64,000 nucleotides of DNA from contig NZ_JAGQCJ010000016.1 in assembly GCF_024346135.1 (NCBI RefSeq), positions 1 to 64,000 of the forward strand, given 5' to 3'. Within the stretch, counting starts at the first letter, position 1, and each line of letters opens with the position of its first letter. A program made the translations under genes and the position numbers. This DNA comes from Cyanobium sp. CH-040. Lineage in GTDB: Bacteria; Cyanobacteriota; Cyanobacteriia; PCC-6307; Cyanobiaceae. The notes below the pieces were generated by a model. That model saw only the letters and a list, made by a program, of their open reading frames with translations, had not been told where the DNA came from and did no database searches. Shown one piece after another: positions 217 to 8,972 of this stretch.

Positions 217-750
217 GTGCCCTTGCGGTGCCGGCTTCACCCGCCTGCGGCGGTGAGCTGGGCCCTGCCGGTGCCCCTGCGCGTCCACGGCCGCTACAGC
301 CGCGCTGAGATCGAAGCGGCGTTCGGCATCCTGACGGGCGACGCCCCCTGGATCCACCGCGAGGGCGTGCTCTGGCACGAACCCAGCCAGACCGACCTGC
401 TGTTCGTGACCCTCAACAAGAGCGAAGCCCTCTTCTCCCCCACCACCCGCTACCGCGACCTGGCCCTGGGCCCCACGCTGTTCCACTGGGAGAGCCAGAG
501 CACCACCACCGCCGCCTCCCCCACCGGGCAGCGCTACATCCACCACAAGGCGCGGGGTTCACGGGTGCTGCTGTTTGTGCGCGAGCACCGGCGTGAGGGG
601 GGCCGCGCCGGTGGTGTCACCGAGCCGTTTCGCTGTCTGGGGTTTGCGCGGTACGTGAGCCACGAGGGGGAGCGGCCGATGGCGATTCGCTGGCGGCTGG
701 AGCGGGCGATACCGGCGGGGTGGATGCAGGGGATGGGGTTGGCGGTTTGA
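217..750 (+). pseudogene. DUF3427 C-terminal helicase fragment, copy 1 (177-codon open frame)
   Basis: From about residue 17 this frame matches the DUF3427 domain that normally closes large DEAD/DEAH helicases: RVHGRYSRAEIEAAFG, EGVLWHEPSQTDLLFVTLNK, LFHWESQSTTTAASPTGQRY, VLLFVREHRREG, YVSHEGERPM and WRLERAIPAGW are all in order. No helicase motif lies upstream, because an IS3-type element ends about 90 bases before. This is therefore an intact-looking tail cut off from its enzyme, not a complete gene. Whether it is expressed is unknown. It is the longest of five related remnants in the first 4.4 kb, and a hicBA module starts 37 bases after its stop. Confidence 0.75.
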
Positions 751-787
751 GACCCGCCAGACTGGTGGCAAAACCATCCCGGCCACC

Positions 788-1006
788 ATGACGACCGCCA
801 CCCCCCAGCGCCTTACGGCGATCCTCTACCGGGAAGACGAGGTCTACGTGGCGGAGTGCCCGGAGGTCGGCACCGCGAGCCAAGGCGACACTATCGAGGA
901 AGCCCTGGCCAACCTGCGCGAAGCCACCGAGCTCTACCTGGAGGAATGTCCGCGACCTGCGCTGGAGCCCCGGCTGCTGACCACCTTCGAGGTCAACGTT
1001 GCCTAA
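788..1006 (+). CDS. hicB: HicB-family antitoxin 1
   Basis: This 72-residue protein has the HicB pattern: a short beta-strand opening (LTAILYREDEVYVAECPEVG) followed by TASQGDTIEEALANLREATELYLEE, the standard partial RNase-H-like fold. HicB proteins bind and neutralise the HicA mRNA interferase and usually repress their own operon. The toxin gene follows with an 8-base overlap, so the two are translationally coupled, in the antitoxin-first order. No DNA-binding C-terminal domain is visible, so autoregulation may be weak or need the complex. The gene directly follows DUF3427 fragment 1. Confidence 0.85.
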   Translation: MTTATPQRLTAILYREDEVYVAECPEVGTASQGDTIEEALANLREATELYLEECPRPALEPRLLTTFEVNVA

Positions 1007-1244
1007 GTTGCCTCGGTTGCCGGCATCTGCCGTCATCGCCGCCTTGCAGCGCCTCGGTTTCGAAATCGTGCGCCAGAAAGGCTCCCATGTGGTGCTGCGA
1101 AGACAGTCCCCCAATCCTGAAAGTGGCGACGCCAATGTGACCTGCGTGGTGCCTCTCCATCGCCGTGATCTGGCAGTGGGGACGCTGGGAAGCGTGCTTC
1201 GTCAGGCAGGGGTCGACGCGGAGACGTTCATCGAAGTCCTCTGA
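999..1244 (+). CDS. hicA: HicA-family toxin 1 (mRNA interferase)
   Basis: An 81-residue HicA/YcfA-type protein with a double-stranded-RNA-binding-like fold. The motif RQKGSHVVLRR contains the catalytic histidine (His30), and VPLHRRDLAVGTLGSVLRQAG is the typical second half. HicA toxins cleave mRNA independently of ribosomes when HicB is lost. Translation probably begins at the TTG at 999, inside the end of hicB, because the family motif KLPRLPASAVIAAL starts immediately there. The gene looks intact, so the module could be functional. Confidence 0.85.
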   Translation: MPKLPRLPASAVIAALQRLGFEIVRQKGSHVVLRRQSPNPESGDANVTCVVPLHRRDLAVGTLGSVLRQAGVDAETFIEVL

Positions 1245-1256
1245 CGATTTTCATCG

Positions 1257-1486
1257 CGGAACCTGATCCTGCGCGTCCACGGCCGCTACAGCCGCGCCGA
1301 GATCGAGGCCGCCTTTGGCATCCTGCGCGACGACGCCCCCTGGATCCACCTCGAAGGCGTCCTCTGGCACGACCCCAGCCAGAACGACCTGCTGTTCTTG
1401 ACCCTCAACAAGAGCGAAGCCCTCTTCTCCCCCACCGGCCAGCGCACCATCCACCATGAGGCGCGGGGTTTGAGGGTGCTGCGCAC
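1257..1486 (+). pseudogene. DUF3427 helicase-tail fragment, copy 2
   Basis: The sequence reads LILRVHGRYSRAEIEAAFG, then EGVLWHDPSQNDLLFLTLNK, then ALFSPTGQRTIHHEARGLRVL, which is the start and middle of the same DUF3427 domain as copy 1. Compared with copy 1 it lacks 81 bases (27 codons) between two copies of the 10-mer CTCCCCCACC, so it arose by deletion between short direct repeats. Many third-position differences show that it is an older paralogue and not a recent duplication. Similarity stops just before the Uma2 gene on the other strand. No coding function is proposed. Confidence 0.75.
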
Positions 1487-1524
1487 CGCCGCCTGCGAGT
1501 CGAGACAGGCCCTTTGCCCATGGT

Positions 1525-2106
1525 TCACGCGGCCCACAGCTCCGCCAGATCCAGCCGCAGGGCCAGCAGCTCCGGCTCACCGTCCAGCACCGCCAACCCC
1601 TCCAGCCGCTGCGGTTCACCGCTGGGACGCCACACCTCCACGCAACGGGTTTCGGGCAGCAGCAGCCAGCCCAGGAGCGCCCCATTCGCCTGATAGGCCT
1701 CCATCTTGCGGCGCAGGTCCAGCAGCGGGTCGGATGGGCTGGCCAGCTCCACCACCAGATCGGGGCAGAGGGGCGGAAAACCCTGGCGCTCGGCCGGGGT
1801 CAGGGCCTGCCAGCGCTCCAGCCGCACCGCACTGCCATCCGGGCTCAACACGGAGCCATCGGGGAGCTGGAAACCCGTGGAGCTGTCGAACACGCACCAG
1901 CCCGGCTGGCTGCGGGCCCACAGACCCAGCTGCACAGCCAGCTGGTTGTTGCGCCGTCCGGTTTCGCCGCCAGCAGGAGTGATCTCGATCAACCTGCCGT
2001 CCGCCGCCAGCTCCAGCACAGCATCCGGATTCGCGGCACAGAGATCAGCGAACTGGGCCGGGGTGAGCCGCAACGCTTCGCTGAGTTGGCGAGGCAGGGT
2101 GAGCAT
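1525..2106 (-). CDS. Uma2 family nuclease (DUF820)
   Basis: A 193-residue Uma2/DUF820 protein, a PD-(D/E)XK nuclease family greatly expanded in cyanobacteria. The likely catalytic residues are Asp90 in LSPDGSAV, Glu120 in CPDLVVELASPSD and Lys134 in LRRKMEAYQANGA, followed by the usual WLLLPETRCVEVWR strands. Biological roles of Uma2 proteins are poorly known; they are often scattered near mobile or toxin-antitoxin loci, as here. It starts at the ATG at 2106 and is a single gene, convergent with DUF3427 fragment 2. Confidence 0.85.
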   Translation of the reverse strand: MLTLPRQLSEALRLTPAQFADLCAANPDAVLELAADGRLIEITPAGGETGRRNNQLAVQLGLWARSQPGWCVFDSSTGFQLPDGSVLSPDGSAVRLERWQALTPAERQGFPPLCPDLVVELASPSDPLLDLRRKMEAYQANGALLGWLLLPETRCVEVWRPSGEPQRLEGLAVLDGEPELLALRLDLAELWAA

Positions 2107-2167
2107 GGCCCTGCGAAGGCACGGACACTGATCCTGATCCTAGGCAGGGTTCAGGTGGTCGCCTTCC

Positions 2168-2548
2168 TCAACCATCGCCAAGCAACTGCTTCACCAGAGC
2201 AACCAGCTCCTTCTTCGTGAAACTCTCCAGGGGAGGCAGGGGCGGTGTGACGCCATGGTGCTCCAGAAGCTTGGCCAGAGAAGCCTTCTGCAGCTTCGAG
2301 TAGCCCTTGATCCCGTGTTCCCTGCAAAGCCGCTTCAGGCTCGCCACAGACTGCTTCAGGAAACAGCCCTTCCCCAGCAGGGCTTTCGTGGCCTGAGATC
2401 CTGCTGACTCAGGATCCTGCAGGGACTGCAGGGCAGTTCCCGTCCGCAGAAGATGCGCGCCCACCCGCCGGTACACCCTGGCATCGGTGCCCGCAAGGTC
2501 CCGGTTGGTCTGCTCCAGAAGATCGGCAATCGACGGGCCCGCGCTCAT
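2168..2548 (-). CDS. Hypothetical protein with Rho-N/SAP-like helical motif
   Basis: A 126-residue protein not assigned to a named family. The stretch SLKRLCREHGIKGYSKLQKASLAKLLEHHG resembles the Rho N-terminal/SAP helix-extended-helix (LxxLCxxxGIKGYSKxxKxxLxxLL), a nucleic-acid-binding motif, and a second partial copy (FTKKELVALVKQLLG) ends the protein. Its ATG overlaps the stop of the upstream coiled-coil gene (ATGA), so the two are cotranslated and probably work together. The pair sits between DUF3427 fragments 2 and 3 in the toxin-antitoxin island. A nucleic-acid-linked role is inference. Confidence 0.6.
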   Translation of the reverse strand: MSAGPSIADLLEQTNRDLAGTDARVYRRVGAHLLRTGTALQSLQDPESAGSQATKALLGKGCFLKQSVASLKRLCREHGIKGYSKLQKASLAKLLEHHGVTPPLPPLESFTKKELVALVKQLLGDG

Positions 2549-3003
2549 GGCCGCTCGCCGAGTTGATTGGAGGGATTCCGCACCGCATCTGCTTCTGAAG
2601 CCAACGCCGCGGCCCTGGCCTTCACCGTGCGCCAGCGCCTGGCCTGCTCGATCAAGCGGCGGAACATCTCCACGAGCCAGAAGCCGCTCTGGCGCTCGCT
2701 CTCGTCAATGAGCCCCACCATCGCATCGCCCGTTTCCTCCAGTTCGCGGATCACCGTGCCGAGCTTGGCGTTCAGGGCATGAAGCCGCGCCTTGGCCCGC
2801 GCCTCGTCGGCCAGATCCGCCTCCAGCTCCACCAGTTCCCGCTGAAGCTCCGCGATCACCACACCCCGCCGGTCGCTCTGGGCCTTGAGGATCCCTCGTG
2901 AGCGGTTGGCCGAGACGAGGGCTGCGCGGCATTCCTGGTACGTCGTCTCAAGAGCCTCCGCATCGGGCGTCACCGGAAACTCTGTGGCCGAGCGAAGCGG
3001 CAT
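2545..3003 (-). CDS. Hypothetical coiled-coil protein, first gene of a two-gene cassette
   Basis: A protein of about 152 residues with no family recognised. Most of it is charged heptad-like helix (for example VIAELQRELVELEADLADEARAKARLHALNAKLG split over two segments), ending in a helical region with FWLVEMFRRLIEQARRWR. No signal peptide or membrane span is visible. I chose the ATG at 3003 (MPLRSATEF), which has a GGA about ten bases upstream; an upstream in-frame start at 3072 would add 23 residues. It overlaps the Rho-N/SAP-like gene by four bases. Confidence 0.55.
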   Translation of the reverse strand: MPLRSATEFPVTPDAEALETTYQECRAALVSANRSRGILKAQSDRRGVVIAELQRELVELEADLADEARAKARLHALNAKLGTVIRELEETGDAMVGLIDESERQSGFWLVEMFRRLIEQARRWRTVKARAAALASEADAVRNPSNQLGERP

Positions 3004-3144
3004 CGGGATTCGTCCAGCTGGCGTCAGGTTGCCCAATCCTGCCGGGTCTTGCCGTGCCTCTTCACGCAGCACAAACCCTGGGCGTCACCCTTCCTCGATC
3101 TGGCCTTGAGCGATTGGCCGACAGGACCAAGCCCTGCCCTGGGG

Positions 3145-3364
3145 CCGTCGCTGTTCCACCGGGAGAGCCAGAGCACCACCACCGCCGCCTCCCCCACCGA
3201 CCAGCGCACCATGCATCACGAGGGTCAGACGGGCGCGCGGGGGGTGTCATCCAGCCGTTCCGGTGACTTTGTTGCGCGCGGTAGGAGCGACCCATCCCGG
3301 CGGGGTGGCTGCCAGGCTGATGCCACGCATAGCAGCGGCGTTGGCGGTTGGAGGGCGGCCAGAC
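3145..3364 (+). pseudogene. DUF3427 helicase-tail fragment, copy 3 (degraded)
   Basis: The first part encodes LGPSLFHRESQSTTTAASPTDQRTMHHEG, matching the middle of copy 1. After internal deletions and frame changes the sequence resumes with a close relative of the copy-1 end (ERPIPAGW-like, then GTTGGCGGTT and CCAGACTGG). The last similarity lies about 25 bases before the second hicB. It is clearly non-functional as a protein gene and serves only as evidence of the island's history. Confidence 0.65.
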
Positions 3365-3388
3365 TGGAGCTCACGATGGGCCGGCTTC

Positions 3389-3586
3389 ATGACCTACCGC
3401 ATCCGCCTGCTGGAAACCGAAGAGGGCTGGTCTGTGAGCTGCCTCGACCTGCCCGGTTGTCATTCGCAGGGCAACAGCCGCGAGGAAGCTCTCAGCAACA
3501 TTCGTGAGGCCATCACTCTCTGGCTTGAGGTCGAGGCTGAGGAGGCCGGCGTGAAGAGCGTGGAAACGCTCGAGCTGGCTGTGTAA
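3389..3586 (+). CDS. hicB: HicB-family antitoxin 2
   Basis: A 65-residue HicB-type antitoxin: MTYRIRLLETEEGWSVSC, then DLPGCHSQGNSREEALSNIREAI, the classic GC(x)SQG(x)(T/S)xEEAxxNIxEAI signature. It is only distantly similar to HicB 1 and belongs to another subfamily, so the two modules were acquired separately. The ATG at 3389 is chosen because the family begins exactly there; the longer open frame upstream is DUF3427 debris. Its stop codon touches the start of the toxin gene. Confidence 0.87.
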   Translation: MTYRIRLLETEEGWSVSCLDLPGCHSQGNSREEALSNIREAITLWLEVEAEEAGVKSVETLELAV

Positions 3587-3798
3587 TGCCCAGACTTCCG
3601 GGGATCAGCCAGACGGAGGCGGTGCGGGTGTTCCAGAAACTTGGCTATCGGGTGGTGAGGGAATCCGGGCATCTGATCATGAGCAATGGCGAGCGGCGCC
3701 TGGTCATTCCCCGTCATGATCCGATCAACGCCATCACCATGGGTGCCATTGCCCGGGATGCCGGTCTCACGCCTCAGCAGTTCCGGGAGTTGCTCTGA
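3586..3798 (+). CDS. hicA: HicA-family toxin 2 (mRNA interferase)
   Basis: A 70-residue HicA/YcfA toxin with RVVRESGHLIMSNGERRLVIPRHDPIN. His29 is the expected catalytic residue, and IPRHDPINAITMGAIARDAGLTPQQFRELL is the family's usual C-terminal half. It overlaps hicB by one base (TAATG). It should act as a ribosome-independent mRNA endonuclease held in check by HicB 2. The sequence looks intact. Confidence 0.88.
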   Translation: MPRLPGISQTEAVRVFQKLGYRVVRESGHLIMSNGERRLVIPRHDPINAITMGAIARDAGLTPQQFRELL

Positions 3799-3813
3799 AA
3801 CAGGAGGATGAAC

Positions 3814-3876
3814 TGCTGGCGGTTGGAGAGGCCGATCCCGGCCGGGTGGATGCAGGGGATGGGGTTGGCGGTTTAG
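3814..3876 (+). pseudogene. DUF3427 helicase-tail fragment, copy 4 (last 20 codons)
   Basis: These 63 bases encode CWRLERPIPAGWMQGMGLAV and a TAG stop, the exact C-terminal end of the DUF3427 protein seen in copy 1 (WRLERAIPAGWMQGMGLAV). The fragment follows hicA 2 by about 15 bases and abuts the truncated nucleotidyltransferase gene. It marks a junction where the two have been joined. Confidence 0.75.
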
Positions 3877-3882
3877 CGTCGG

Positions 3883-4089
3883 ATGGCACCCCACAGCGCA
3901 CGTCAGGCCTTGCCCGGCAGTGATGTTGATCTGCTCGTGGACCTTCCCGCCGGCGCCAGCCTCTTCGACCGGGCCGATCTGAAATCCGCTCTGGAGGATC
4001 TGCTGCTCACCCGGGTGGATCTGATCCGCCGTCGCAACCTCAAGCCGGAACTGAAAGCCAAGGTGGCAGCCGAAGCCATCCCCCTGTGA
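3883..4089 (+). pseudogene. 5'-truncated MntA-type nucleotidyltransferase (antitoxin of a HepT/MntA pair)
   Basis: The readable part, ARQALPGSDVDLLVDLPAGASLFD... then LEDLLLTRVDLIRRRNLKPELKAKVAAEAIPL, is the second half of a minimal nucleotidyltransferase (family GSxARGxAxxxSDxDLLVEF...KVDLV...LKPxLxxxI). The metal-binding SDVDLL motif remains, but the preceding helix and GSF motif are lost where the gene joins DUF3427 fragment 4. About 30-40 residues are missing, so the enzyme should be inactive. In intact pairs this protein AMPylates and neutralises HepT. Confidence 0.75.
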
Positions 4090-4317
4090 CGGACGCGCGT
4101 GATCGCCAGGCTCTGATCGATGTCCTGTCAGTTTTCGATCGAGCTCTGGGCTACCCGATCGACAGCGAAGAGACCTTCCTGGCCAAAGATTACCTCCAGG
4201 ATGCGCAATGTCCTGATTCATGCCTACGACCAGGTTGATCTTGAAGAGGTCTGGATGGCCTATCAGCGCTTTCCGGAGATCCGTCGCCATAGCGATGCGA
4301 TCCTGAACCTGAGCTGA
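4086..4317 (+). pseudogene. Internally deleted HepT-like (DUF86) toxin gene
   Basis: Starting at a GTG that overlaps the previous stop (GTGA), frame one encodes TDARDRQALIDVLSVFDRA and ETFLAKDYLQDA, a HepT N-terminus. From 4201 a different frame encodes RNVLIHAYDQVDLEEVW, the HepT catalytic RX4HXY motif and C-terminus. About 40 middle codons are absent, and the joint at 4200-4208 leaves the halves out of frame, so frame one stops at 4236-4238. The toxin is therefore dead, in keeping with its truncated antitoxin partner. Confidence 0.75.
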
Positions 4318-4327
4318 GGCAGCCAGC

Positions 4328-4354
4328 CACCGCGAGGGCGTCCTCTGGCACGAG
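4328..4354 (+). pseudogene. DUF3427 helicase-tail fragment, copy 5 (27 bases)
   Basis: These bases encode HREGVLWHE, identical in protein to part of copy 1 (residues around WIHREGVLWHEPSQ) and differing at only one base. On its own it is short, but its position directly after the HepT remnant and the presence of four other copies nearby make chance unlikely. It immediately precedes the foreign-looking gene that follows. Confidence 0.5.
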
Positions 4355-4372
4355 TACCTTCACAAGCTGAAT

Positions 4373-5266
4373 GTGGACGAGAACGGGATCGAGGTTCACC
4401 GGATGCTCGGGGAGGTATGCGCTGCCGACGGATCGCCGCTCCAGCCTGTGGGCGGTGTGGCGGGTGTGCTGCGATGCCCCACCTGTGGACACCGAACGGA
4501 CGAACCCGGCGACGGACGACTTGGCGACGGGTTCGACGTCAACCACCGGCAGTGGGGCCTGCGCGGTGATCTGCATGCCTGGCAGGCCATGCGTGAGCTC
4601 GTCGGGGCGACGCCCACGCCGAACGATCGCGAGGCGATCCGTGCGGCCTACGTCGACGCCCTGCGTCGCGTGGCCGATGTCGACATCGATCAGACCGACC
4701 AGCGGGTCGTGCACCGGCCACACCTGGACCATGGCGGGATGTCCGGCGGATCGGTCGATGTCGAATGGTGGCGGTCCAGGGGCATTCCACTGCTCGTCGA
4801 GCGGGCGCTGCAGCGGCGCCCCACGCCCTCATCGCCATCCGCACCACGCCCCGGCGGCCGGGTGATCGACGCCGTCGTATGGACGATCCTGCTGGCGATT
4901 CCTGCAGCGTTGGTCGGTGGCGGAGGGTTCCTGCTGGTTCAGCGGGCGGTCGGTACGCGCGTTGAGGCCAGGGTGCTTGAGTGCGACACATCGGGAGCGA
5001 TCATCCGTGGAGCCTCGACGTACCGCACCGAGTGCATCGCCCAGTGGGAGATCGGCGGTCGGCTCGTCACCGGTGGGTTCACCGGCGGCAACGGGGCGTC
5101 CGACGTCGGCCGCACCGTCGACGCAACGGTGCGCGGCGACACCGCCTACAGCCGCTCGTTCGTTCTCCCCGTCGTGCTGATCGCCATGGGACTGCCGTTC
5201 CTGGCGCTTCCCGTGCTCACGATCCTCAGGACGAACAGCTGTAGTGCGACAGGCCACCGGCGTTGA
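4373..5266 (+). CDS. Membrane protein of foreign appearance, 3' end replaced
   Basis: A 297-codon frame from a GTG start, not assigned to a family. The first 150 residues are soluble and include [14 protein letters not shown], a possible zinc knuckle. Two hydrophobic spans follow, near residues 165-190 ([19 protein letters not shown]) and 262-286 ([20 protein letters not shown]), around an extracytoplasmic beta-rich domain, a layout like DUF3592 proteins. Codon use (GTCG/CGTC-rich) and style recall actinobacterial genes. The last 11 or so codons are simply selO read backwards, so the original C-terminus is lost. The true start is uncertain, because the upstream joint is also rearranged. Confidence 0.5.
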
Positions 5267-6923
5267 AGAATTCCCCGGGCTTGAGGCGGTCGTAGGTGGC
5301 CGCCAGCTCGGGGGGCAGCGGGTCGTAGGGATGGCTGAACACCTCCTGGAGTGCCCTTACCAGGCTGAAATCACCTGCCGCAGCCTTCTCATAAGCCGGA
5401 GCAACCAGCCACTCGCGCCAGGTGATCGCCGGGTTCACCCGTTTCATCGCGGCGGATGTCGCGCTGAGGTCGCCGCCTTCCGTGAGGCGATCGCGCCAGC
5501 GCTGCAGCCAGGCCATCCAGCGCGCGTCGAGCTGCTCCGAGCTGGGCTGGTAGAAGCTCTCCTTCAGGGGTGAGAGCTGCTCGGGAATATCGGACAGCCT
5601 GCGGAACAGGATCGTGGTGTCCACCTTGGAGAGCACCATCAGCTGCAGCAGCTCGTTCACCAGGTCGGCGTCGTAACTCGCCAGGCCGAGCTTGCTGGCC
5701 CACATCGCCTCGATCGCCTCGCCCATCACGCCTGCGAAGCCGTCGCGGATCGCATCCAGCCGCTCCAGGGCCTCGGCATCACCCTTGAGCAGTGGCCGCA
5801 GGGCACTCCAGAACATCGTGTAATTGGCCTCGGCCGCCGCCGGCTGGTTGAAGAAGCAGAAGTGCTCGCCGCCGCCGGTCCAGGGCTGGAAGCGGGGATC
5901 GAACAGTTCGCAGAAGCCGAAGGGGCCGTAGTCGAGCGTGTAGCCGCCGGCGGCGCAGTTGTCGCTGTTGAAGTTGCCCTGGCAGTAGCCCACGCGGATC
6001 CAGTGGGCCACCAGGGCGGTGAGCCGCCCGCGGAACAGTCGCGCCAGCTCCACCAGCTGATCGCTGAACTCCAGGCCCGGATCGATCTCCGAGCGGTAGT
6101 TGCGCTCGATCAGGTGCACCACGATCATCCGCAGCTCGTCCAGTGCACCCGGATGCGCCTGGCTGCGGGCGCGGCGGGCGAACAGCTCCAGCTGGCCCAC
6201 CCGCAGAAACGACGGTGCCACGCGGGTGGTGATCGCCGCCGGGTTGTCCACCAGGATGTCGGGCTCGAACGAGCGCGAGTTCGGCGCATACCAGGGCCGG
6301 CGCACCGTTTCCGCTCGCGACATGTACAGCGTCAGCGACCGTGAGGTGGGCACCCCCAGGGCGTGCATGAACTCCTGCGCCAGGAACTCCCGCACGCTGG
6401 AGCGCAGCACGGCACGGCCGTCGGCGCCGCGGCAGTAGGGCGTGGGGCCACCGCCCTTCAGTTGCATCTCCCAGCGCCGGCCGTTGAACACGCCTTCGAA
6501 CACCGAAATCGCCCGGCCATCGCCGTAGCCGTTGCCGGTGCCGAACGGGCACTGCTGGGTGTATTCGGTGCCGTAGATCGAGAGGGCGTAGCCGGTGGCC
6601 CAGCCCACCGGTCGCATCGGCTCCCGCGCCACGCTGATGTCGCCGGAGAACAGCCGCGTGAACCGTTCGTCGTGGGCGAGCGCATCGCTCAGCCCCAGCT
6701 CCCGGAACAGGGTGCTGCTGTGCGCCACGTACTCCGGCGCCGGCAGCGGCGTGGGCGTCACCGGCACGTAGTGACCGGAGAACACCTGGCGGGGCCGGTG
6801 ATCCTGGCCATCGCCGCTGGCCTGAGGATCCGCCCGCAGGGAATCCATCAGTGAGTAGTCGGCCCGTTGGGCGAACTCCGCGAAGGTTGCGGTCAGGGCT
6901 GCGGTCGGCAGGGTGGTCGTCAC
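5226..6923 (-). CDS. selO: Protein adenylyltransferase SelO (YdiU family)
   Basis: A protein of about 565 residues of the SelO pseudokinase family, which transfers AMP from ATP to Ser/Thr/Tyr of proteins, in bacteria linked to redox stress. Visible signatures are [76 protein letters not shown] (shown in parts) and the metal site [20 protein letters not shown]. It ends YSCSS, where the Cys matches the selenocysteine of the animal enzyme. I chose the GTG at 6923 ([10 protein letters not shown]), preceded by GAGAGA; longer in-frame starts would run into the divergent gene at 7073. Confidence 0.9.
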
Positions 6924-7072
6924 GGGTCTCTCGGGTGTGGCGCAGCCTGGGCCAGGCCCTGACGCCGGGCGCACCATCCTGGCGAGTCCGTCGCCATCGC
7001 TGGCGGGCCGGTTGAGGATGGAGCCGTGCTCGTCATCAGCGGGCATGTCACGCCGCTTCGGGAGCCCGGGCA

Positions 7073-7723
7073 ATGATTCCGCGCTGGATGGGAGGTCTGG
7101 CCCGCACGGCATGCCGGTTGCTGGCTGCCGCCCTGGCCCTCGGCGCGCTGCCGGTGCAGGCCGCCCCCAACGGCACCTGGCTGTCGCAGCCGCAGATCTG
7201 GTACTACGGCACCCGCCAGTCGCTGAACGGGGTGATGGCCCAGATCCGTGCCAGCAACTACCGGGTGGTGTTCCTCGACGTGCGCAAGGTGTCGGACGCG
7301 ATGCAGCGGGAGGCGGCGGAGGCGGCCCGCCGCCACGGCCTCCTGCCCGTGGTGTGGGTGCAGTCCCCCCAGTACCGGGCCCTGCGCATCCCGGATCTGG
7401 TGCACGAAGCCCGCCACGGCGACGCCATCCAGGTGGACGATCACTTCTTCGCCAACTACACCCTGGCGGACTTCTACTGGTTGCGGCAGGTGTACACCAA
7501 GCCCATCTTCTGCAGCATCCAGCCCTTCCAGGCCGGCCTGGTTCCGAGCACCGGCTGCAATCAGCTCGACGTGCAGTGCTACACCGCCCAGCAGTTTCCT
7601 CAGTGCCTCAAGCTGGCCGACCGCCTCGGCGCCGTGGTGAGTCTCTCCACCCAGAACACCCTGGGCCACCGCAGCCAGCTGGGCGCACGACCCTTCAACA
7701 CCTTCCTCTGGCAGGGGCCCTGA
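7073..7723 (+). CDS. Secreted protein of unknown function
   Basis: A 216-residue protein with a clear signal peptide (hydrophobic core [18 protein letters not shown], cleavage after QA near residue 30). The mature part has alternating strands and helices ([35 protein letters not shown], shown only in outline; then [21 protein letters not shown]), suggesting a partial TIM-barrel-like glycoside-hydrolase fold. Four cysteines (around FCSIQ, STGCNQ, VQCY and FPQCLK) may form disulfides. I do not recognise a named family. It is divergent from selO, leaving about 150 bases between them. Confidence 0.7.
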
Positions 7724-7877: not shown

Positions 7878-8972
7878 ATGAAGCGCACCGTCAGAAATCT
7901 GGTCGCCAACGCCCTCGCCGTTGGCGCCCTGCTGGTGGCGCAAACCGCCGAGGCCTGCACCGGCATCCGCCTGATCGCCAGCAACGGCGATGTCGTCTTC
8001 GCGCGCACTCTGGAGTTCGCGCTCGACCTCGAATCCGAGGTGATCATGGTGCCGCGGGGCTACGCGCGCACCGGCACGGCGCCCGGCGGCAGGGCGGGCA
8101 TGCGCTGGACTTCCCGCTATGCATCGCTCGGCGCCAACGGCGTGGGCCTGCCCTTCATCTTCGATGGACTGAACGAGAAGGGTCTGGCGGTGGGCACCTT
8201 CTATTTCCCCACCACCGCCGGCTATCAGGCCTTCAGCCCCGCCGATGCCCGCCGCACCCTCGCCCCCTGGGAACTCGGCTCCTGGCTGCTGGAGAGCTTT
8301 GCCAGCGTGGAGGAGGTGCGGCGCAACATCGCCAATGTGGTGGTGGCGGACGTGGTCTACCCGGCCTGGGGATTCACACCCCCAGTTCATTACATCGTCA
8401 ATGACGCCAGCGGCAAGAGCATCGTGATCGAATACATCGGCGGCAAGCTGAACGTGCATGACAACCCCCTTGGGATCATGGCGAACTCGCCGTCGTTCGA
8501 CTGGCACATGACGAACCTGCGCAACTACGTGAACTTCACGCTCACCAACCCCGCGCCGGTCACCATCGGCGGCGTGAAGCTGCAGCCCTTCGGCATGGGG
8601 GCCGGGATGCTGGGCCTGCCGGGTGATTTCACCCCCCCCTCGCGCTTCGTGCGGGCGGCGGCCTTCGCCACCTCCGTGGATCCCGGCAAAACGGGCGACG
8701 ACGCCGTGCTCGCCGCCTTCCACGTGCTCAACAACTTCGACATCCCCAAGGGCGCAGCCCGCGAAGGCCACAAGGATGAGCGCGGCAACGTGGTGGCCGA
8801 CTACACCACCTGGACCAGCGCCAACGACCTGGCCCGCCGGCGCTTTCTCTTCCGCACCTACGACAACAGCCAGATCCGTTCGGTGGAGCTGATGAAGCTG
8901 GATCTCAATGCCAAAGGCATCACCAGCTTCTCGATGCAGGGTAAGGAGCAGATCCGGGCGCTCAATCCCTGA
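7878..8972 (+). CDS. Exported linear amide C-N hydrolase (choloylglycine hydrolase / penicillin V acylase family)
   Basis: A 364-residue Ntn-hydrolase. The signal peptide ends AEA and the next residue, Cys27 (AEACTGIRLIASNGDVVFARTLEF), is the catalytic N-terminal nucleophile exposed by cleavage. Downstream family motifs include GLNEKGLAVGTFYF, NPLGIMANSPSFDWHMTNLRNY and LPGDFTPPSRFVRAAAF. Members hydrolyse bile-salt amides, penicillin V or N-acyl homoserine lactones; the natural substrate here is unknown, and in a picocyanobacterium signal quenching is one possibility. The ATG at 7878 (MKRTVRN) gives a normal signal peptide. Confidence 0.88.
   Translation: MKRTVRNLVANALAVGALLVAQTAEACTGIRLIASNGDVVFARTLEFALDLESEVIMVPRGYARTGTAPGGRAGMRWTSRYASLGANGVGLPFIFDGLNEKGLAVGTFYFPTTAGYQAFSPADARRTLAPWELGSWLLESFASVEEVRRNIANVVVADVVYPAWGFTPPVHYIVNDASGKSIVIEYIGGKLNVHDNPLGIMANSPSFDWHMTNLRNYVNFTLTNPAPVTIGGVKLQPFGMGAGMLGLPGDFTPPSRFVRAAAFATSVDPGKTGDDAVLAAFHVLNNFDIPKGAAREGHKDERGNVVADYTTWTSANDLARRRFLFRTYDNSQIRSVELMKLDLNAKGITSFSMQGKEQIRALNP

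Follow-up and report, generated by a model that had tools for sequence, protein, structure and literature searches.

Near the start of a contig of Cyanobium sp. CH-040 (NZ_JAGQCJ010000016.1, positions 1–64,000; this 64,000-nucleotide stretch is the window), two hicBA toxin-antitoxin (TA) modules of unlike sequence follow the same short border, raising the question of what the border is and how different modules come to stand behind it. As an earlier note had proposed, the upstream part of the border is the end of a DUF3427 reading frame (PF11907, 2.8e-18), here that of a gene predicted to encode a SauUSI-like type IV restriction enzyme. The window holds five copies of the tail of this gene, all on the + strand; the stretches between them carry, in order, one hicBA module, the Uma2 cluster, another hicBA module and a putative mntA-hepT pair. 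Comparable arrays recur in related genomes, and we put the probability at roughly 0.6 that they are arrays of cassettes shuffled by homologous recombination between the tails.

The restriction gene and its tail arrays

Full-length relatives of the gene comprise 25 open reading frames (ORFs) of about 920–1200 aa. The domain order PLDc_2, ResIII, Helicase_C, DUF3427 was found in one chain in all three full-length relatives tested, both relatives tested with PADLOC matched mREase_IV (1.5e-268 and 1.8e-269), and one relative tested matched PDB 7clg ("Putative helicase", 953 aa, 8.6e-73), which, judged by its length, is probably SauUSI itself. From these matches the gene at the head of the arrays is predicted to encode a SauUSI-like type IV, modification-dependent restriction enzyme, and it shares the PLDc, helicase, DUF3427 order with SauUSI-type enzymes. 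SauUSI is described as combining PLD nuclease and SF2 ATPase parts with a coupler and a target-recognition domain of SRA fold (residues 806–953, the last ~148; PMC7913695, available excerpt); DUF3427 has been named as the SauUSI C-terminal domain (PMC3874153, available excerpt) and predicted to bind modified DNA (PMC7159879, available excerpt).

Of 400 genomes sampled from the family, 74 carry the tail in a search that scored at most eight candidates per genome, and at least two matches were obtained in 57 of these 74, counted as rows, where one match can be a piece of one copy. Sixty stretches from 57 relatives, together with the window and contig C20, make up 62 loci from 58 of the 74 genomes. 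In these loci 196 tail copies, chained from BLAST pieces by a rule of our own, were recognized, with at least two tails in 49 loci, one in 13 and a maximum of 11; 138 copies end within three codons of the stop of the gene. Start points of the 134 downstream copies range from 18 to 1127 codons ahead of the stop and commonly fall at codons −126 to −204. Tails lie downstream of 17 of the 25 full-length genes, and none was found within the 321–2305 bases upstream of any of them. Hosts include Cyanobium, Synechococcus sp. WH 5701, Synechococcus sp. SynAce01 and Vulcanococcus limneticus.

Class-wide, 13/388 genomes gave a match, the sole one outside the family (G449) having one copy, and SauUSI-type relatives outside cyanobacteria, unlike the cyanobacterial arrays, showed no second tail at any of 28 loci (one labelled only as bacterium), 20 of which extend 3 kb or more downstream. 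As a control, a second C-terminal match of any kind within the locus was found for 6/115 other genes of at least 300 aa, five of the six at 31–40% identity. An artefact of draft assembly is unlikely, several copies also being present on one-contig genomes (G030, G072, G121) and on the complete Synechococcus sp. SynAce01 chromosome. The array is a well-supported recurring arrangement. No description of arrays of this kind was found in the literature searched, which is weak evidence given thin coverage of subscription journals; as far as that literature goes, the array is undescribed. In L049, read in the orientation that puts the tails on the + strand, another restriction gene of the head kind (15–1898, opposite strand) adjoins the 11-copy array and may head a second one.

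TA genes were found in 121 of the 132 segments bounded by tails (longer than 150 bp, median 711 bp), where one partner sufficed to count and the TA reference set was drawn mostly from these arrays; flanking 711-bp tiles matched the TA references in 18/420 cases (3/121 upstream and 15/299 downstream, 82 of the downstream tiles coming from the window). MNT-HEPN alone accounts for 36 segments, HicBA alone for 30, DUF433-DUF5615 alone for 17 and VapBC/PIN alone for 11, the rest being other or mixed; segments lacking TA genes comprise ten with no class and one, in the window, with Uma2 only. DUF433-DUF5615 is a pair that we take to be a TA system, and dropping its 17 segments leaves TA genes in 104/132. 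The cargo falls into 64 families (23 clusters and 41 singletons), with family assignment checked on representatives.

The best TA gene is covered to at least 85% and free of stops in 108 of the 121 segments, whereas, among tail copies of at least 100 codons that reach the stop, one intact frame is present in 6/44 downstream copies against 39/53 first copies. Cargo is therefore kept while tails decay. This contrast bears on a reading in which the tails form a silent library of specificities, carrying the SRA target-recognition domain and recombining into the head gene to change which modified DNA is cut, with TA genes as passengers. The location of that domain in the last ~148 residues of SauUSI (PMC7913695, available excerpt) agrees with the common tail starts at −126 to −204, and tails of unlike type coexist in arrays. 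However, only those 6 of 44 downstream copies keep one intact frame over the matched stretch, 31/134 copies start at most 61 codons before the stop and are too short for the domain, and the TA genes in 121/132 gaps would lack an explanation. We rejected the library because its downstream copies are mostly broken, and consider it very improbable.

A 19-bp unit (variants GGCTGTTGTGTCGCACACC, GGCTGTTGCTTGGCATAGC and GGCTGTTCCTCGCCATCCC) occurs in 1 to 4.5 tandem copies just before the ends of decayed tails, with 44 matches near the tail-end motif against 5 elsewhere in the analysed loci (e.g. L051 10138–10222 and L048 7023); a looser variant can be seen by eye at ~3313–3335 of the window. In L090, a second copy of the C-terminal part of SelO (8210–8656) sits between tails, 80% identical to the other copy ~4 kb away, as if the end of the SelO gene had been drawn into the same process.

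The window and its two hicBA modules

The features at the start of the window are as follows.

1–127, no strand assigned: end of an insertion sequence (IS), identical to L007 (C20) read from base 6703 down; the contig breaks here
128–178, − strand: opening 17 codons of an IS-interrupted MNT-type nucleotidyltransferase gene, from translations against an intact relative
232–750, + strand: tail copy F1, about the last 168 codons in an open frame with TGA at 748–750 (PF11907, 2.8e-18; tblastn of full-length relatives, −168 to 0)
735–766, + strand: shared border copy 1, made of the tail end and a hicBA leader (26/32 against 3337–3368)
788–1006, + strand: hicB antitoxin 1 (DUF7387 over cut-off, HicB-like below cut-off)
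999–1244, + strand: hicA toxin 1 (HicA_toxin, 1.1e-16)
1268–1482, + strand: tail copy F2, starting at codon −152 and lacking the 3′ end (repeats D1, D7)
1525–2106, − strand: Uma2-family putative endonuclease gene (Uma2, 3.6e-35)
2168–3072, − strand: two small ORFs (2168–2548 and 2545–3072) of no confident family, with close relatives in L066 and L069
3136–3352, + strand: tail copy F3, decayed, with an internal deletion, a ~21-nt insertion and the stop changed to GGA (repeats D2, D3, D20)
3337–3368, + strand: shared border copy 2 (26/32 against 735–766)
3389–3586, + strand: hicB antitoxin 2 (HicB_lk_antitox, 2.2e-10)
3586–3798, + strand: hicA toxin 2 (HicA_toxin, 4.2e-08)
3815–3876, + strand: tail copy F4, the final ~60 nt of the gene, ending in a TAG stop (92% to F1 over 60 nt, D5)
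3883–4317, + strand: putative mntA-hepT (type VII) pair, the hepT piece partial (NTP_transf_2, 9.1e-06)
4327–4353, + strand: tail relic F5, 27 nt (96% to F1, D8; E 3.4e-5)
5226–7112, − strand: SelO gene (PF02696, 3.8e-62)

The two borders share 26 of 32 bases, ungapped, in a base-by-base comparison (735–766 against 3337–3368); the repeat search covers the same similarity as family D20 (31 nt at 84%), and the next best counterpart of 735–766 in the whole 64 kb reaches 20/32. The two hicB genes start at 788 and 3389, each shortly 3′ of the border, as the earlier note had it. In copy 2 the position of the TGA stop reads GGA (3350–3352) and is preceded by the ~21-nt insertion, so the tail at this copy is a decayed relic. 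Both modules are HicBA by Pfam, each HicA_toxin match (1.1e-16 and 4.2e-08) lying beside a HicB-like antitoxin; HicB 2 scores above its cut-off (2.2e-10) and HicB 1 below the HicB_lk cut-off, but above that of DUF7387, and NCBIfam gave no match for any of the four HicA/HicB proteins. The border is common and the cargo is not: the HicB proteins are 46% identical over 37 aa and the HicA proteins 27% over 81 aa. A recent duplication of one hicBA module was rejected, the two being too different in pairwise comparison, which bears out the view that they are not recent duplicates.

The similarity that had been seen to continue past the helicase stop does exist, but the stretch GCCAGACTGG is not helicase sequence. 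With one mismatch allowed, CCAGACTGG lies within 60 nt of the tail end at 12/41 HicBA cargos, compared with 2/155 other cargos, so the post-stop similarity is a hicBA leader, common to some cassettes of two hicBA families and no part of the border itself. The boundary also recurs in many other genomes, with different cargo after it. The earlier suggestion of cassette replacement at a fixed border holds as to the shared border, but not as to a single site, since the tandem array holds several coexisting TA cassettes, each flanked by two tail copies; gain, loss and exchange of cassettes fit better than simple replacement. Copies additional to those in the earlier note are the tails at 1268–1482 and 3815–3876, the 27-nt relic at 4327–4353 and one more on contig C20.

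In this genome the restriction gene survives only as a 468-aa remnant on contig C20 that retains Helicase_C and DUF3427, immediately followed by a small ORF and then a Doc toxin gene (Fic, 2.8e-20; DOC_P1); the small ORF has no family match, and the pair was counted as TA through Doc. The IS end at the start of the window also forms one end of C20, and the remainder of the IS-split MNT-type gene (FTRQLVECYAPEKV...) lies at the other end of C20; the translations of the split gene, MTTTPIPLVTREALLAF and TPFTRQLVECYAPEKVILFGSL..., were compared with the intact relative MTTSPAPLVTREALRAFTRQLVECYAPEKVILFGSL. Because of the split MNT gene and the shared IS ends, we infer that the IS splits one array across C20 and the window contig, in the probable order restriction-gene remnant, Doc module, MNT gene with IS, F1, hicBA 1, F2, Uma2 and two small ORFs, F3, hicBA 2, F4, mntA-hepT, F5, SelO. 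The internal deletion of F2 lies between CTCCCCCACC repeats. For the mntA-hepT pair, MntA_antitoxin at 3883–4317 (1.4e-06, 28.1 bits) falls below the NCBI cut-off of 60, and the HepT-like match at 4120–4314 (1.3e-07) is over its cut-off, but partial.

Relatives of the ORF pair at 2168–3072 adjoin each other in L066 and L069, behind the final tail. A 297-aa ORF (4373–5266) located between relic F5 and SelO has no Pfam match, and the sequence at its end recurs beside SelO in L055. Across the 62 loci, SelO lies after the last tail in 29 and before or inside the array in 3, and is absent in 19 with more than 3 kb covered and in 11 with less. In L007, the opposite strand carries a Schlafen-group-3 helicase gene (2860–4851; PF09848; PADLOC PDC-S41, 1e-277) immediately upstream of the truncated restriction gene.

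Borders, mosaic tails and the proposed movement of modules

The end motif TGGC(G/A)(G/T)(T/C)N plus stop served as the selection rule for borders; 133 of the 196 copies qualify and 63 do not. Among these motif-selected copies, with one border per family for 30 of the 64 cargo families, similarity drops ~8 nt past the start of the stop. The stop and the next bases tend to follow the cargo: three unrelated families (two of MNT and one of DUF433 type) have TAG, often extended to TAGCGT, in most of their members, and TGAG precedes most other cargo. The start of the next tail likewise varies with cargo family, being −152/−153 at 4/5 measurable hicBA 1 loci (3/4 outside the window, the fourth at −113) and −126/−127 in 5/6 of cluster 8. 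Tail starts after cargo of the same family lie within six codons of one another in 63/374 pairs from 16 families (shuffled mean 22, maximum 39 in 2000). A scan of 132 borders for −35/−10 elements scored 7.06 against 7.25 for shuffled sequence, and a promoter in the tail was rejected.

Tails and cargo are of mosaic origin. For 73 of the 97 downstream tails that span 150 nt or more, the best-matching tail lies in another genome, although near ties tend to go to a foreign tail because the other-genome pool is much larger. Cargo is at least 85% identical in 126 cross-genome pairs, and in 49 of these the tails ahead of it share less than 75% identity, partly owing to internal deletions. In the 85 pairs whose cargo reaches 90% identity, similarity breaks off within 30 nt of the stop in 15 and 30–105 nt upstream of it, in the tail itself, in 9; another 19 stay collinear, and the remaining 42 belong to none of these three classes. 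Pairs in both sets, and in the comparison of following tails, are not independent. A c3-c4 block is common to L050, L072, L073 and L105, behind four different first cassettes.

Defence genes cluster in genomes, and the locus might be an ordinary defence island in which TA genes gather near a restriction gene and the tails are duplication debris that plays no role in exchange. Such a reading accommodates the mostly broken downstream tails and a cassette order that is not significantly conserved. It sits poorly, however, with the 73/97 tails that match other genomes better than their own, with the regular alternation of module and tail, with the rarity of a second C-terminal match among control genes (6/115) and with the lack of a second tail at the non-cyanobacterial loci that extend 3 kb or more downstream (0/20); we regard the island as a poor candidate, of low probability.

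The region is part of a cassette array, with a SauUSI-like restriction gene standing, or once having stood, at the array head, TA modules behind it on the same strand in ~0.7 kb segments, and 5′-truncated and usually broken copies of its 3′ end as separators. Under homologous recombination between tails, these separators would act as shared homology. Incoming tail-cargo-tail DNA, or an excised circle of cargo plus tail, would recombine with any resident tail, and modules would thereby be gained, lost or swapped. The intact head gene would be retained because recombination re-forms its own end, and cargo would be kept by selection (TA addiction or phage defence) as the tails decay. We infer recombination to be the likely mechanism, and suggest a RecA-type agent, circles or linear donor DNA as substrates and such selection as the reason for module retention. 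Homologous recombination is favoured because tail homology flanks each cargo, the tails are mosaic and breakpoints fall both at the border and inside the tail, and also because no attC core pattern and no recombinase were found, the latter within the small share of inter-tail cargo ORFs that was run against Pfam.

Several observations weigh against this mechanism. The stop-codon breakpoints (15/85 pairs, from 5 cargo families and not independent) are sharper than tails 60–95% identical predict, and the exact joining of a new module to the stop codon is not explained by homologous recombination; a site-specific process therefore keeps a share of the probability. Among the loci compared, no strain pair differs by exactly one cassette, and 8/25 full-length genes have no tail in the downstream bases covered (only 500 bases for one). 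Tails after cargo also switch type, which does not support a fixed unit of cargo plus following tail, and we rejected such a unit on this ground. Conservation of cassette order is not significant (15 shared neighbour pairs, shuffled mean 10.6, as many or more in 203/2000), nor is polarity (previous cassette the same in 1/11, next the same in 1/8), so that polar insertion at the head was rejected, and decay with rank is weak (rank against length, rho −0.15, p 0.08).

A site-specific cassette system, in which a putative recombinase would join modules at TGGCGGTK-stop with the tail in the part of attI/attC, would account for the sharp borders: 138/196 copies end within three codons of the stop, similarity falls ~8 nt past it (in the 133 motif-picked copies), the stop codon and the bases just after it tend to accompany the cargo, and 15/85 close pairs break at the border. 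Integron integrase models also score over cut-off in 30/99 relatives. However, GTTRRRY occurs at none of the 133 borders, nor within 12 nt of them, and RYYYAAC...GTTRRRY in 0/133 tail ends and 0/132 cargo ends (0 and 1 in shuffled sequence), in a search of the core pattern, not of structure. The Pfam result on inter-tail ORFs, the 9/85 pairs that break inside the tail and the irregular 5′ side of the tails count against it as well, and we judge the system unlikely. An integron as such was rejected for want of the attC core pattern, and Pfam identified no integrase among the seven C20 proteins submitted. Two relatives have integrase fragments directly adjoining the restriction gene (G121:C1:1860511–1860972 and L094 5537–5764), and the over-cut-off IntI of Cyanobium sp. 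CH-040 itself lies on contig C23 (G000:C23:107667–108599) and has an internal stop. By-eye cross-reading finds the tail in 13/14 family genomes with an over-cut-off integrase, compared with 5/47 without; since a larger genome might by itself make both array and integrase more likely, no conclusion is drawn from their co-occurrence. We also entertain, tentatively, a dedicated platform unrelated to integrons, with the 3′ end of the restriction gene as its insertion site, in which a hypothetical activity, perhaps encoded elsewhere, would insert TA cassettes exactly at the stop codon.

Comparison with known systems and implications

Chromosomal integrons carry tandem, compact cassettes of one or two genes, TA cassettes included, behind a fixed head gene. 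The present arrays resemble them in their tandem compact TA cassettes behind a fixed head gene, found in other genomes in shuffled order, and differ in that the attC core pattern is absent, the head is a restriction enzyme and the separators are degenerate copies of its 3′ end. The closest published logic is found in the orphan rhs-CT/rhsI modules, where a full-length gene is followed by displaced fragments of itself with small partner genes and a 522 bp stretch serves homologous recombination (PMC3967940, available excerpt). In the Rhs case, as that excerpt presents it, the cargo resides in the variable tip and the common part is the conserved core, whereas here the conserved 3′ end is shared and the cargo consists of separate, unrelated TA operons. 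The array is not an Rhs orphan array, whose displaced fragments would end in toxin domains with linked immunity genes: here the fragments consist of the conserved gene end and terminate ahead of the cargo, and in the window the cargo genes have start codons of their own.

Picocyanobacteria are rich in TA pairs, which in Synechococcus CB0101 are located in genomic islands (PMC5498466, available text); the TA repertoires described there and in PMC12413379 (available text) thus come from related and likewise TA-rich hosts. In a term search, the available main texts of both papers contained neither "helicase" nor "restriction", and repeated gene tails were not seen in them. High TA numbers in coastal and freshwater strains are reported without an explanation in the text examined (PMC12413379).

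In freshwater and coastal picocyanobacteria, the tail of a restriction gene appears to be a shared handle for the exchange of TA pairs between genomes. A gene end would then serve as the common handle of a cassette array, a modification-dependent restriction enzyme is linked with TA modules at one locus, and the question of whether homologous recombination alone can build integron-like arrays becomes directly testable. Were the dedicated platform true, restriction and addiction or abortive defence would be acquired and exchanged via one locus across the whole picocyanobacterial family. Exchange between tails offers a concrete route by which picocyanobacteria may accumulate and trade TA systems.

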